Of a stretch of DNA of 39,966 nt, positions 2,262 to 22,045 are shown in pieces. Below the pieces are notes generated by a model that was not told the origin of the DNA, searched no databases, and saw only the letters and a list, made by a program, of their open reading frames with translations. Source of the DNA: an uncultured Flavobacteriales bacterium (GTDB lineage: Bacteria > Bacteroidota > Bacteroidia > Flavobacteriales > Schleiferiaceae); NCBI GenBank assembly GCA_950073045.1, contig CATMQD010000007.1, forward strand, positions 1-39,966. Direction: 5' to 3'. The position numbers and the translations under genes were made by a program. Positions within the stretch are counted from its first letter, which is position 1. Every line of letters begins with the position of its first letter.

Positions 2262-3704
2262 ATGAAAAATTTAGCAATCGCCCTTGGACTAAGCTTAAGT
2301 TTTGGACTTTCTGCCCAAACTGTGAGCACTGATTTTGAAAGCTCGAAAGGAAATCGTTCGGCAGAAACCTGTTGGGGTTTTGGCGGATTTAGTCTTACAG
2401 CAAAGTCAAACCACAAACCCATTAACGGTTATAGTGCCCGCAGTGGTTCTTTAAATTCAAATAAAAATTCCTTTTGGATGAAATCGCCTTTTATTGAGTT
2501 AAAAGGAGGTAACATCACTTTTGATGCACGCTTAAGTAGCAGCGATGGCTCACGTTCTTTTATAGTTTATGTGGACTTCATTCCTTATGATGCCAATGAC
2601 ACCTATGGAGAGGATGATGCCAATATAGTGAGTGGAGGTAGTTATACCTTAAATAGTCCACAAGAAAACATTCAGGCAGTGAGTATTCCAGTGCCAGCCA
2701 CTGTTGCTAATAATGGAAAAGCTTACAAGGTATATTGGCGCTTTGAGTCGGCAGCGGGTAACCGTAACCGTCGTATGATTGTAGATAATATCTCAATCCC
2801 AGGAGTTTATGTTTCAGACCCAAGCAATAACTGTAAAGTTTTAACTCAAGTTGCCGATAGCGACTTTGATGGTGTTGATGATGATATTGATCAATATCCT
2901 AATGATCCAGACCGTGCTTATGCGGCCTATAATCCAGGTGAAAACACCTATGGTACTTTTGCTTACGAGGATTTATGGCCAGCAAAAGGGGATTACGACT
3001 TTAATGACTTGGTATTAGATCATCAAGAGTTATTCATCTTCGATGCGAACAACCGTGTAAAAGAGATTCAAGCTAAATTTGTAGTGCGCGCTTTAGGTGG
3101 TGATTTAATTCAAGGTTTTGGGGTACACTTCTTCGGTATTAATCCTTCTCAAATTGAGAGTGCTACAGGAGCCAGTCTTACTACGGGTACTATTGCTACA
3201 AATGCGAATGGCACAGAGCAAGGTCAGAGCAGTGCTGTGCTTATTGTTTGCGATGATGTTGAACAGGTAATTAACCGTACTTCTGGTGCCTTCTTTAATA
3301 CCGTGCCAGAAAACCCCGAGGGAACTTCGGATACCATTTCAGTTAATGTGGTTTTCACCACTGCGATAAGCATGAGTGACATGGATAATGTATCCATTTT
3401 CGCTTATAAAAACCGCGATCAAGAGATTCATCGCAAAGGCAAACGTCCTACTGATAAGGCTGATCAAAGCTTATTTGGAACCATGGACGATGCTTCAGAT
3501 CCAGCTAATGGCACTTATTACTGCACAGAGCAAGGTCACCCTTGGGCCATTGAACTATCACAGCGTTTCGACTACCCAGCCGAGCGAGTTGACATTGTAC
3601 AAGCTTATTTGAATTTTGCAAATTGGGCCCAGTCCAATGGCGGTGCTTATGAGAATTGGTACACCCAAGAAAGCGGTAACCGTAACTCTGGAAATTTATA
3701 TTAG
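2262..3704 (+). CDS. LruC domain-containing secreted protein
   Basis: Signal peptide MKNLAIALGLSLSFGLSAQ. DSDFDGVDDDIDQYPNDPDRAY (Ca-binding-like) followed by the LruC-type block FAYEDLWPAKGDYDFNDLVLDHQ. Confidence 0.88.
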   Translation: MKNLAIALGLSLSFGLSAQTVSTDFESSKGNRSAETCWGFGGFSLTAKSNHKPINGYSARSGSLNSNKNSFWMKSPFIELKGGNITFDARLSSSDGSRSFIVYVDFIPYDANDTYGEDDANIVSGGSYTLNSPQENIQAVSIPVPATVANNGKAYKVYWRFESAAGNRNRRMIVDNISIPGVYVSDPSNNCKVLTQVADSDFDGVDDDIDQYPNDPDRAYAAYNPGENTYGTFAYEDLWPAKGDYDFNDLVLDHQELFIFDANNRVKEIQAKFVVRALGGDLIQGFGVHFFGINPSQIESATGASLTTGTIATNANGTEQGQSSAVLIVCDDVEQVINRTSGAFFNTVPENPEGTSDTISVNVVFTTAISMSDMDNVSIFAYKNRDQEIHRKGKRPTDKADQSLFGTMDDASDPANGTYYCTEQGHPWAIELSQRFDYPAERVDIVQAYLNFANWAQSNGGAYENWYTQESGNRNSGNLY

Positions 3705-12279: not shown

Positions 12280-13305
12280 CTACAACCTTGCGTGATGCGA
12301 TTTGATAAAATCGGTAATTAGGTAAACCATTGCCTTGGCACTAAGCTCCGCTTCCATGGCATTATTAGCCAAATCGGGAGCGGCTTCCGCCAGATGGAAA
12401 TAACGAGGAGCACCTAAAGCAGCAGCCGTTTTCACCAAAGTACGTACTTGGCGCATCGTAAAACCACTGGCGTTTAAAGCACTAACGGGATAAGCGGTAA
12501 TGCTATCCATATCTAACTCTAAACCAATCGGACCAGGACCTAACCAACGCAAGGCATCTTTAAACAAACGGTCGCGTTCTTCAGTGCTGAAGGTGAGTAG
12601 CTCATCATAGGTTAAGTAATAGAGGTCGGAGGCCGCACGGAATTTTTCTAATATATCCTGGTTATTATAGGACTCATGCATACCAAACACCGCATAACGT
12701 CCCAAAAATCCTTCTTTACGTGCATAGCTGAAACCATTGCCACTATGTCGACCTTCCAAAGCACGATAATCTGCATGAGGGTCAATATTTAGCACATCAA
12801 TATCTCCCTTGAGGGCCTGCGACATACCCTTAATAATGCCATAAGAGTTATTATGTCCGCCGCCAATTACAATTGGAATTAGGCCTTCACTGGCTACCGC
12901 TTTTATTAAGGCACTAACTTCTTCATCAATCATAGCGGTTAGTTCTCGTAAGCGCTCTAAATCAGCATCCCGATTAGGGTCCAGGTTTTGGGCACTTTCC
13001 ATTAGATCTTTAAAATCCAAAATGGGACCTAAAGCAATATTGTCGGCATGTAAAAAGCGATTAATCTGCACATTGCACAATGGCGCCAAAATATGCTGGA
13101 AAGCCGTAGCGCAACCCTGTCGTCCCAAATTAGCCCGTACTCCGATATCTTCTAAAATACCGATAATTACAAATTGGAGCTTCTTATTTTTTAGGTCTTC
13201 TAGACTTTCAACCAATTGTACTGCCTCACCAAATTTAGTTTCACCCTTGCGGGGAAAAACATGGTCCTGTAAATGGTGTAAGTCTAAAAATCGCAAATGC
13301 TTCAT
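12280..13305 (-). CDS. hutG: Formimidoylglutamase (ureohydrolase/arginase family)
   Basis: GGGHNNSYG, NIDPHADYR, GLELDMDSIT metal-binding motifs; overlaps hutI by 4 nt. Confidence 0.88.
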   Translation of the reverse strand: MKHLRFLDLHHLQDHVFPRKGETKFGEAVQLVESLEDLKNKKLQFVIIGILEDIGVRANLGRQGCATAFQHILAPLCNVQINRFLHADNIALGPILDFKDLMESAQNLDPNRDADLERLRELTAMIDEEVSALIKAVASEGLIPIVIGGGHNNSYGIIKGMSQALKGDIDVLNIDPHADYRALEGRHSGNGFSYARKEGFLGRYAVFGMHESYNNQDILEKFRAASDLYYLTYDELLTFSTEERDRLFKDALRWLGPGPIGLELDMDSITAYPVSALNASGFTMRQVRTLVKTAAALGAPRYFHLAEAAPDLANNAMEAELSAKAMVYLITDFIKSHHARL

Positions 13306-14540
13306 ACTATCTTGTTTCCTTTGAGGTAAACTTCTTCAATTAAATTATGTCCCATGTGATAGGGGATGGAGGCCAAAGTAAATTCTTGTGGTAATACTAA
13401 GAAGTTAGCCAATTTACCTTGCTCTAAACTTCCAAGGTCATCACTTAATTCCATAGCGGCAGCGCCATTTAAAGTGGCTGCCACAAGGGCTTCTTCGGTT
13501 CTTAATTTCATCTGGCTACAAGCCAAGCCCATCATTAAAGCCATATTCCCACTAGGTGCAGAACCAGGGTTTAGATCGGTTGCCAATGCAAGGGCTGCCC
13601 CTTTATCAATCAATTTACGACCAGGAGTATAGGAGATGTCTAAAAATAAACTGCATCCCGGTAGGGCAGTGGCAATAGTTTGACTTTCGGCGAGGTATTC
13701 CACCTCAGCATCGTCCATTACCTCTAAATGATCTAAGCTTACCGCTCCCATGTCCACCATCGGTTTAATAGCACCTAAACTGTTAAACTGATTAACATGC
13801 ACCTTGGCGGACAGTCCATAAGCTTTTGCCGCTTCTAAAACGCGCATACTTTGATCTAGGCTGAAATAGCCCTCTTCACAAAAAACATCTACATAATCGG
13901 CCAGAGATTCTTCCGCCACAGCTGGCAGCATTTCTTCAATAACCAAGTTTATATAGTCATCCACGCGACCTTTATATTCTTCTGGAAGGGCGTGGGCGCC
14001 TAAAAAGGTACTCTTAATACTTACTGGCGATTCGGCTTGTAATTTGCGGATCACACGCAACATTTTGAGCTCGGTTTCGGTGCTTAGGCCATAGCCGCTC
14101 TTTATTTCAATAGTTCCGGTTCCCATTTTCACCAAAGCCGAAAGTCTTTTTCGGGCATCGGCCAACAGTTCCTCTTCGGAGGCTTGAGTCATTTTCCGAG
14201 CCGAGTTTAATATTCCACCACCGGCTTCTGCAATCTCTGCATAGCTTTTACCTGAAAGACGCATTGCAAATTCATCCTCGCGGTTAGCGGCGTATACTAA
14301 GTGACTATGACTATCAACAAAGGCCGGTAAAAGCTTTTTGCCTTCCATGTCAATGGCCTCATCATACCTACTATCCTCCGGTAGAGCGCCAACACCAATT
14401 TCTTTAATGCGATCATCTGCCACTAAAATCCAAGCGTTTTTTAAGATTGGCATTTCGCTCATTTCGGCGCCACGCTTAAAAATACGGCCTTGGTTTTCAA
14501 CTTGAATAATCTCGGAACAATTATGAAAGAGGCGAGTCAT
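13302..14540 (-). CDS. hutI: Imidazolonepropionase
   Basis: LLPAFVDSHSHLVYAANREDEFAMRLSGKSYAEIAEAGGGI, GTGTIEIKSGYGL, ATDLNPGSAPSGN. ATG 14540 (MTRLFHNC) preferred. Confidence 0.95.
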   Translation of the reverse strand: MTRLFHNCSEIIQVENQGRIFKRGAEMSEMPILKNAWILVADDRIKEIGVGALPEDSRYDEAIDMEGKKLLPAFVDSHSHLVYAANREDEFAMRLSGKSYAEIAEAGGGILNSARKMTQASEEELLADARKRLSALVKMGTGTIEIKSGYGLSTETELKMLRVIRKLQAESPVSIKSTFLGAHALPEEYKGRVDDYINLVIEEMLPAVAEESLADYVDVFCEEGYFSLDQSMRVLEAAKAYGLSAKVHVNQFNSLGAIKPMVDMGAVSLDHLEVMDDAEVEYLAESQTIATALPGCSLFLDISYTPGRKLIDKGAALALATDLNPGSAPSGNMALMMGLACSQMKLRTEEALVAATLNGAAAMELSDDLGSLEQGKLANFLVLPQEFTLASIPYHMGHNLIEEVYLKGNKIV

Positions 14541-14612
14541 GATTATATTTTTCGCGAAGATACCAAAGCGGGACTTCCTAGCGAGCATTTTGTAAATTGC
14601 CGCAAATTCGAT

Positions 14613-19554: not shown

Positions 19555-19770
19555 GTGTCGGTTTAAGCTCTCGCGGTCAATGGATTGGATGTTAATGTGA
19601 ACGGCTTAACCTTTTGTTAATCTGTTTTGTAAGTCAGGTCCTTTCAGTTTAAATTTCAGCTCTTTATTTTCGGCTCACCTTTCGGGATCATTCTTATTGA
19701 TTTCTACAGCCACAGGCTATCGGCCCCCGGATTCCTTGCAATCGGGTCATTTTGAAATCGCTGATCCCTG

Positions 19771-19787
19771 AGACCCAGAATGGGTCT
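19771..19787 (+). promoter_or_regulatory. Hairpin spanning the upstream ATG candidate of the kamA-like gene
   Basis: AGACCCA-gaa-TGGGTCT, perfect 7-bp stem containing ATG 19780. Confidence 0.35.
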
Positions 19788-19815
19788 TCGAATTTTGGAC
19801 CGAGTTATTAACAGT

Positions 19816-21135
19816 ATGGACATTAGTGCACCGAAGTTTCAGGTATATTCTCTCAATAACTTCCTAAAGATTCCACAGGTAGAAAGATACCTAAGCAAGG
19901 AGCAAATTAGGAATATTCAAACCGTAGGAAATGTTCTGCCATTTAAGGTGAATAACTATGTGATAGACGAACTAATTGATTGGGAGAATGTTCCAAATGA
20001 TCCTATCTTCAAGCTTACTTTTCCTCAGGTAGAAATGCTCTCTAAGCCTCATTACTCTAAAATGGAGTCGGCCTTAATGCAAGAGCTTCCTCGTGCCGAG
20101 TTAAAGAAGGTGGCGAATGATATTCGATTAGAACTTAATCCACATCCAGCAGGACAAAAGAGTAATATTCCTGAATTAGACGGCGACAAACTCACGGGTA
20201 TCCAACATAAGTATCGGGAGACGCTATTGTTCTTCCCAAGTAATAGTCAGACTTGCCATGCTTACTGCACTTTTTGTTTCCGTTGGCCACAATTTGTAGG
20301 CATGGATGAGCTAAAGTTTGCCATGAAAGAAACGGATTTACTGGTTAAATACTTACAGCGTAATCCGGAAGTAACCGATGTTCTCTTTACTGGAGGTGAT
20401 CCGATGATTATGAAGACCAATAAATTTGAACAGTATATTAATCCACTTTTAGAAAGTGAAATTCCGAATCTCCAAACTATTCGAATCGGCTCTAAAGCAT
20501 TGGGATATTGGCCCTACCGATTTATTACCGATAATGATGCGGATGATATGCTACGGCTGTTCGAGAGGGTAACCAAAAGTGGAAAGCAATTGGCCTTTAT
20601 GGCCCATTTTAATAATGTTCAAGAATTACGGACTCCTGCGGTAGAACGCGCTATGCAGCGAATTATAGATACCGGAGCAGTAATTCGCACCCAGTCGCCT
20701 ATTATGAATCATATTAATAATAGTGCTGAAGATTGGGCGCAGATGTGGCGTAAGCAGGTAAAGCTAGGTGCCATACCTTATTATATGTTTATGGCTCGCG
20801 ATACCGGAGCTCAAGATTACTTTGCGGTAAGCATAGAAGAAGCTTGGAATGTCTTTAAGAGTGCCTATAATCAGGTAAGTGGCATTGCGCGTACCGTTCG
20901 GGGACCTAGCATGTCTGCTGCACCAGGCAAAGTTCAAATCTTAGGTATTAATGAGATTAATGGAGAAAAGGTGATGGTCTTGCGCTTTTTGCAAGGAAGA
21001 AACCCAGACTGGGTGGCCAGACCATTTTTTGCAAAATATAATCCTGAGGCTATTTGGTTGGATGATTTAGAGCCTTTTGGTGATGAGGAGCATTTTTTCT
21101 TTGAAAAGGAATATGCCGAAATGCCCTTTGTTTAA
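19816..21135 (+). CDS. KamA-family radical SAM protein (lysine 2,3-aminomutase-like)
   Basis: CHAYCTFC (CxxxCxxC) cluster motif, VLFTGGDPMIM, IPYYMFMARDTGAQDYF, SMSAAPGKVQ. Start ATG 19816 or 19780. Confidence 0.85.
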   Translation: MDISAPKFQVYSLNNFLKIPQVERYLSKEQIRNIQTVGNVLPFKVNNYVIDELIDWENVPNDPIFKLTFPQVEMLSKPHYSKMESALMQELPRAELKKVANDIRLELNPHPAGQKSNIPELDGDKLTGIQHKYRETLLFFPSNSQTCHAYCTFCFRWPQFVGMDELKFAMKETDLLVKYLQRNPEVTDVLFTGGDPMIMKTNKFEQYINPLLESEIPNLQTIRIGSKALGYWPYRFITDNDADDMLRLFERVTKSGKQLAFMAHFNNVQELRTPAVERAMQRIIDTGAVIRTQSPIMNHINNSAEDWAQMWRKQVKLGAIPYYMFMARDTGAQDYFAVSIEEAWNVFKSAYNQVSGIARTVRGPSMSAAPGKVQILGINEINGEKVMVLRFLQGRNPDWVARPFFAKYNPEAIWLDDLEPFGDEEHFFFEKEYAEMPFV

Positions 21136-21391
21136 GCAGTTTTCATTTCTTCTAATGCTTGTCGCCACATAATTAAATATGGCGTTAAAAAGAGCAGCCC
21201 CCCTTAGATAAAGAGTCACCAGTGTGTAACTGTATATGCTAGGGTAATCCTAGCTCGAAGAAATTAAGTTTTATTAAGCAGCAGATTCAAATCTGGCGAT
21301 TAGATACCGGTGTCTTTTTTATTTGCTAATTAAGGGCCTTAAGGCAGAAGCATAATCTTAAAGGATTATTTTGCAAGAAAATCGATAACCT
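21136..21391 (+). other. Structured intergenic region; candidate sRNA/3'UTR
   Basis: GCTAGG-gtaat-CCTAGC (21238-21254), CAGATT-ca-AATCTG (21282-21295), AGATA-CCGG-TGTCT followed by T6 (21302-21320), TTAAGG-G-CCTTAA (21330-21342). Confidence 0.3.
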
Positions 21392-22003
21392 GTGATTATT
21401 CCTTCGGGCTTCCGTCGCTTGATTCTTAGCGAAAAAATTGACGAAACTATTTGCTGTCCGCACTGCAATTCTACTTATGGTGCAAGAATTGAGGTTAGTC
21501 GAATGCATTTTCATGTTTTTTGGATTCCAACTTTAGCCTATCGTAAGCGATTACGGATTTACTGTATAGAATGCCAGAAAAAAATTAAGCTAAAGACTTT
21601 AAGAGACTCTCAGCAGATACCCATTTTAAACCTGCGCAGCAAAGCACGTGGTCCTTGGTGGCAGTTTACAGGCTCATTTATTTTGTTGGGACTTACAGCT
21701 ATAATCCTCGTATTTATGAATTTGGGTGAAACAGCTACTGCTGTAGAACTAAGCTACGAAGATCCTAATGTTGGTGATCGATTGATTTATAAAGTATCGG
21801 AAGGAAAGTACTCTTCCTATTTAGTTGAGGGTATTGAATCTGATACCTTGAAACTTCGCAGGAATCTAATCTCCAGTGATAAAAAGTATTATATCAATGA
21901 TTTACTGGAAGGTGAAAAGCTGGATAGCATCATTGTAAAATTAAGTTTGAAGGATTTAAAGCAATTACGTGAAGAAGGTATTTTTTATGCCTCTCGCCCT
22001 TAA
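21392..22003 (+). CDS. Hypothetical membrane protein with N-terminal zinc-ribbon-like cysteines
   Basis: GTG start; CPHC...CIEC pairs followed by one TM segment (WWQFTGSFILLGLTAIILVFM). Confidence 0.6.
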   Translation: MIIPSGFRRLILSEKIDETICCPHCNSTYGARIEVSRMHFHVFWIPTLAYRKRLRIYCIECQKKIKLKTLRDSQQIPILNLRSKARGPWWQFTGSFILLGLTAIILVFMNLGETATAVELSYEDPNVGDRLIYKVSEGKYSSYLVEGIESDTLKLRRNLISSDKKYYINDLLEGEKLDSIIVKLSLKDLKQLREEGIFYASRP

Positions 22004-22014
22004 TTGGCCTTTCC

Positions 22015-22042
22015 AGGATTTAAGTCTATATTGCTAAATCCT
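22015..22042. terminator. Hairpin between convergent stop codons
   Basis: AGGATTTA / TAAATCCT perfect 8-bp stem, 12-nt loop; no obvious U-tract. Confidence 0.4.
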
Positions 22043-22045
22043 AAT

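Follow-up and report, generated by a model that had tools for sequence, protein, structure and literature searches.

Lysine 2,3-aminomutase (LAM; KamA/AblA) is the closest structurally solved relative of the protein described here. LAM positions 293 and 330 touch the lysine side chain, and Arg134 binds the carboxylate. A basic residue replacing Asp293 is presumably the hallmark of glutamate 2,3-aminomutases, as in the Clostridioides enzyme. Published work places ablA under Na+ and c-di-AMP riboswitches and eam under Na+ riboswitches, both as osmoprotectant genes (PMC9337991); beta-glutamate is itself a known compatible solute (PMC1224877). In the biosynthesis of incednine, labelling and gene disruption point to the conversion of glutamate to beta-glutamate, a pathway intermediate, by IdnL4 (PMC11284099), a presumed glutamate 2,3-aminomutase (PMC11284099; PMC9230918) that displayed no activity in vitro (PMC11284099).

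A KamA-like protein below every family cut-off

The window, that is, the whole stretch of 39,966 nucleotides from an uncultured Flavobacteriales bacterium analysed here, carries an uninterrupted KamA-like open reading frame at 19816-21135 on the + strand (439 aa). An in-frame ATG at 19780 gives a 451-aa version (19780..21135, +), to which all residue numbers below refer. The reading frame is real from either start, and the open reading frame, the family searches and the predicted model identify its product as a KamA-like radical SAM/PLP protein. KamA-family profiles of NCBIfam do match the protein, each under its cut-off: TIGR00238 (KamA family) scores 129.5 bits against 199.2, TIGR03820 (lysine 2,3-aminomutase) 110.9 against 525.4, TIGR04368 (clostridial glutamate 2,3-aminomutase) 96.7 against 650, and TIGR03821 (EpmB) 89.4 against 369.3. 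No Pfam model matched it. Among solved structures, a sequence search turned up LAM alone (2A5H; phmmer E 1.3e-22), which is also the best structural match of the AlphaFold model (pLDDT 89.8, pTM 0.89) at E 5.6e-19, the next other protein following at 7.6e-6. With its CxxxCxxC motif, PLP lysine, carboxylate-binding Arg and LAM-like predicted fold, the protein has the features of the KamA-type radical SAM/PLP superfamily. A search for paralogues in its own genome and in congeners returned none, leaving the window gene as the sole KamA relative found in its genome. Upstream in the window (12280-14588) lie amidohydrolase and arginase-family genes, which may complete the degradation of histidine to glutamate.

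An invariant arginine replaces the lysine-contacting aspartate

Pocket residues were assigned by alignment with LAM from a lysine-fermentation operon (L114), arginine aminomutases, EpmB-like proteins and other KamA proteins, and conservation was counted over 112 members of the window protein's family. The CHAYCTFC cluster motif with Cys159, Cys163 and Cys166 (20254..20277, +), Arg168 at the LAM Arg134 position for the substrate carboxylate (20281..20283, +) and Lys384 at the position of the PLP lysine, LAM Lys337 (20929..20931, +), are each invariant in 112/112. The initial annotation had quoted CHAYCTFC, MNHINNSAED and VRGPSMSAAPGKVQ from the reading frame at 19816-21135, where all three are indeed present, and had rightly described the PLP lysine as kept. 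It had further taken the Asp of GVND in characterised enzymes for a lysine-contacting residue, which is wrong: in the phmmer alignment, residue 261 of the 2A5H chain is the first Leu of LLRGVND, so the GVND Asp is Asp267, and Asp293 sits in YYIYQCD. The corresponding INNS of the window protein (20713..20724, +) aligns with LAM VNDC (Asp267) rather than with Asp293, and its Asn is not family-wide, as 98/112 relatives have Asp there.

The loss of both acidic residues, as claimed at the time, stands once the alignment is corrected and this misplaced residue is exchanged for the proper one: the LAM Asp293 position is occupied by Arg340 (20797..20799, +), and the Asp330 position by Ser377 (20908..20910, +). 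Neither is acidic. The basic residue at 293 is found in all 112 members, and the residue at 330 is Ser in 97, Val in 14 and Ile in one. Thr342 and Gly343 are likewise invariant (112/112), and given this constancy of Arg340, Thr342 and Gly343, the replacement of Asp293 is not due to chance. Asp is kept at 293 in LAM, EpmB-like, TIGR03822-type and arginine aminomutase sequences of the alignment, the last of which have Thr at 330. Enzymes whose substrates are cationic (LAM, EpmB-like proteins, arginine aminomutases) have Asp at position 293; the window family has Arg, and Arg340 would bind an acidic side chain. The earlier proposal of a probable substrate other than free L-lysine gains support: the protein lacks the two acids that contact lysine, and an invariant Arg takes the place of Asp293. 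No KamD/E, Kdd, Kce or EF-P gene was detected among the window proteins scanned with Pfam, in agreement with the initial annotation. The protein lacks the acidic pair at 293/330, the TIGR03821 score and the nearby EF-P genes expected of EpmB; judged by its residues or profiles, it lies outside the lysine, EpmB and clostridial glutamate families. At least three Bacteroidota-phylum genomes with the window family also hold a separate KamA protein with both Asp residues.

Horizontal gain and scattered distribution

The window gene is single copy; six congeners and 29 further genomes of the same bacterial family lack it, and two genomes from a different family of the order have a member. In two congeners (L143, L146), the matches to the flanking SBP and NhaC genes are separated by just 63 and 17 bp that contain no KamA-like gene, and three others (L144, L145, L147) have different genes at this site. 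The SBP-NhaC interval (window 19555-22045), empty in L143 and L146, differs in gene content among congeners and constitutes a small variable site. Because the flanking genes adjoin without it in congeners and the interval is variable, we conclude that the KamA-like gene was gained horizontally. In phylogenetic trees, the window protein joins proteins of other bacterial families within its phylum, not those of its own order (support 89/98; second tree, 89).

The family is scattered across Bacteroidota, Chloroflexota, Pseudomonadota and Actinomycetota. Full-length members were found in 42/396 genomes of the window's phylum, in 13/399 genomes drawn around the phylum of Idiomarina, and in 9/301 drawn around the phylum of a Chloroflexota MAG; one class of that phylum gave 65/393. 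Members also reside on actinobacterial and Burkholderiaceae plasmids, Actinomycetota having been sampled from plasmid records only. Phage relatives were considered and set aside as distant (22-27% identity).

c-di-AMP riboswitches precede the gene in many Chloroflexota

Most non-actinobacterial copies are stand-alone genes. In one Chloroflexota class, 27/30 loci carry a c-di-AMP riboswitch (RF00379) upstream of the gene and on the same strand, as does the member in L161. In 23 of 27 measured loci, 59-243 bp separate the end of the aptamer from the start codon, and no same-strand reading frame intervenes. The 30 proteins of this class form 16 clusters at 80% identity, and 14 of these hold a riboswitch-linked member. 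A genome-wide search returned 1-11 c-di-AMP riboswitches per positive genome, one of which is linked to the KamA-like gene in 25/33 positive genomes (0.02 expected under random placement). The linkage requires three changes on the tree and is therefore old and conserved rather than repeatedly regained. At L201, two such riboswitches (1206-1338 and 3068-3211) flank one KamA-like gene; the second lies 3' of the gene on the same strand, and a further downstream gene may be under its control too.

Rfam scans revealed no riboswitch in the window or in the tested Bacteroidota and Pseudomonadota loci. ProVWX adjoins the gene in two more Chloroflexota, which are close kin of each other, and MscS lies just upstream of it in three genomes of one family (f32). 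NhaC was rejected as an osmotic partner of the window gene, being an ancestral neighbour that congeners without the gene also have. The c-di-AMP switch in many Chloroflexota relatives points to a role against salt stress. Our open-access literature search produced no paper besides PMC9337991 linking c-di-AMP riboswitches with aminomutases.

Relatives in natural-product gene clusters

In Mycetohabitans and Streptomyces, relatives adjoin NRPS genes. In a genome of the same order as the window organism, a member interrupted by an internal stop belongs to an NRPS cluster (L113, 3-8113) that also has CmlA-type hydroxylase and TauD-type dioxygenase genes. Rhodococcus and Burkholderia plasmids (L026, 9968-15545; L027, 9914-16710) have KamA-like, lysine N-monooxygenase-type, MetRS-like and ATP-grasp genes in common, gene sets resembling hydrazine (N-N bond) biosynthesis modules.

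In Streptomyces NBC_00334 (L025), a relative is located amid type I PKS genes, next to genes for a PLP enzyme, a hydrolase of the iminopeptidase type and an AMP ligase. This relative, as opposed to the window copy, belongs to a macrolactam PKS cluster in which the AMP ligase is of the beta-aminoacyl kind. The nearest solved relatives of this ligase are the entries of CmiS6, HitB and IdnL1, and it is nearer CmiS6 than IdnL1. The arrangement in L025 matches the plmJ/plmK layout of the pretilactam cluster (PMC6631532) and that of the incednine cluster (PMC11284099). By analogy of length and layout, IdnL4 may belong to the window family. Two candidate partners were dismissed: the window genome lacks the class I/II aminotransferase that lies directly 3' of the gene in L079, L082 and L097, and other genomes have it at an unlinked position; an aminotransferase of the L025 type is likewise found where there is no KamA gene.

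A sister branch (~33% identical, Arg at 293) sits between HTH-cupin regulator and AtoDA-type CoA-transferase genes (L021, 1234-2739; L022, 1456-3003), as if a beta-amino acid product were broken down. KamA-like proteins with Arg at 293 are also encoded on rhizobial plasmids (L032, 7785-8864; L033, 7737-8879), amid genes of the ATP-grasp type and of the ectoine type (ectB and those for ectoine synthase and aspartate-semialdehyde dehydrogenase).

Discussion

To our knowledge, no member of this family has a known activity. From what the analysis observed directly (sequence, motifs, predicted fold, conservation, horizontal gain, and riboswitch linkage in relatives), we infer its chemistry, its substrate and its use in the window organism. 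The protein would be a stand-alone 2,3-aminomutase of the radical SAM/PLP type, from a family other than the clostridial one, and at rest its Lys384 would carry the PLP. The 5'-deoxyadenosyl radical, formed from SAM on the [4Fe-4S] cluster, would abstract a hydrogen from C3 of the substrate bound as an aldimine on PLP, and the amino group would shift from C2 to C3. The alpha-carboxylate would be held by Arg168, and an anionic side chain by Arg340 in place of LAM Asp293. L-glutamate to beta-glutamate (3-aminoglutarate) would be the most likely reaction. Where the gene stands alone, as in the window, the most likely role of beta-glutamate is that of a compatible solute; in actinobacterial clusters it would be a beta-amino acid building block. 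The assignment to the aminomutase class is well supported and that of an acidic substrate moderately so; glutamate itself is proposed by analogy. Taken together, a glutamate 2,3-aminomutase-type enzyme making beta-glutamate as a compatible solute or a precursor in secondary metabolism is a reading to which we give even chances.

Several observations count against glutamate. The rhizobial relatives with Arg at 293 adjoin ectoine-type genes and may act on a substrate that is not acidic; the ligase of L025 is nearer CmiS6, IdnL4 was inactive in vitro, the window and the other tested Bacteroidota lack a riboswitch, and NhaC is ancestral. It is conceivable, if rather unlikely, that a 2,3-aminomutase of the same fold acts on other alpha-amino acids (neutral ones, another acid or a derivative) that vary among members, Arg340 binding a group other than the glutamate carboxylate. 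The great diversity of contexts, from NRPS and PKS clusters to hydrazine-like modules and stand-alone genes, would suit such a spread of substrates, and the Arg-bearing sister branch beside AtoDA genes could fit the breakdown of several beta-amino acids. However, the pocket positions are nearly invariant across all of these contexts, which argues for a single substrate class.

We consider it improbable that the KamA scaffold has been put to another radical SAM reaction altogether. Scores under all KamA cut-offs, a changed C-terminal part and the failure of IdnL4 to act in vitro (PMC11284099) would all be in keeping with such a departure, but the PLP lysine, the Arg134 equivalent, the cluster cysteines and the predicted fold are all kept, and the labelling results for incednine agree with an aminomutase step (PMC11284099). 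It is very improbable that the protein is a true lysine 2,3-aminomutase, or an enzyme for the lysine of EF-P, with an unusual pocket. Relatives do carry the database name lysine 2,3-aminomutase, and ablA is osmotically regulated elsewhere as well (PMC9337991), but Asp293 is replaced by Arg and Asp330 by Ser or Val, the window has no EF-P, kam or abl partner genes, and a canonical LAM-like protein is also present in some genomes with the window family. The name given to family members in the records is very probably wrong. The initial annotation, which had argued against free L-lysine, was sound in this respect; it had relied in part on the wrong residue, had put forward no substrate and had missed the large family, its clusters and the c-di-AMP riboswitches.

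For the glutamate 2,3-aminomutase that we favour, the invariant pocket Arg and the c-di-AMP riboswitch lead to two predictions: an acidic substrate and osmotic control. More tentatively, and with somewhat less than even confidence, we propose that the family forms a second widespread class of beta-glutamate synthases that branches separately from the clostridial enzyme, that in Chloroflexota it makes a compatible solute and is controlled by c-di-AMP riboswitches, that it has been transferred horizontally between phyla, and that it is the source of the IdnL4-type aminomutases of natural-product pathways.

Among known systems, KamA/AblA LAM (2A5H) shares the predicted fold, the Cys motif, Arg134 and Lys337 with the window protein, which differs in having Arg for Asp293, Ser for Asp330 and SMSAAPGK for PGGGGK. 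EpmB and the arginine 2,3-aminomutase BlsG have the KamA fold and catalytic residues in common with it, but unlike the window protein keep Asp at 293; EpmB in addition goes with EF-P genes, and none were seen in the window. The Clostridioides glutamate 2,3-aminomutase (TIGR04368, eam) belongs to the same superfamily and would catalyse the same reaction if the glutamate assignment is right, yet the window protein reaches 97 bits against its cut-off of 650, and no such clostridial enzyme scored above cut-off in the genomes searched. The Clostridioides enzyme has Lys at 293, where the window protein has Arg, and Asn where the window protein has Ser. L025 resembles the systems of IdnL4 (incednine) and PlmK (pretilactam; plmK, 450 aa) in length, annotation and position by a class I/II PLP enzyme and a beta-amino acid ligase. 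The window copy differs in standing by itself, outside any cluster, in a genome of the Bacteroidota phylum.
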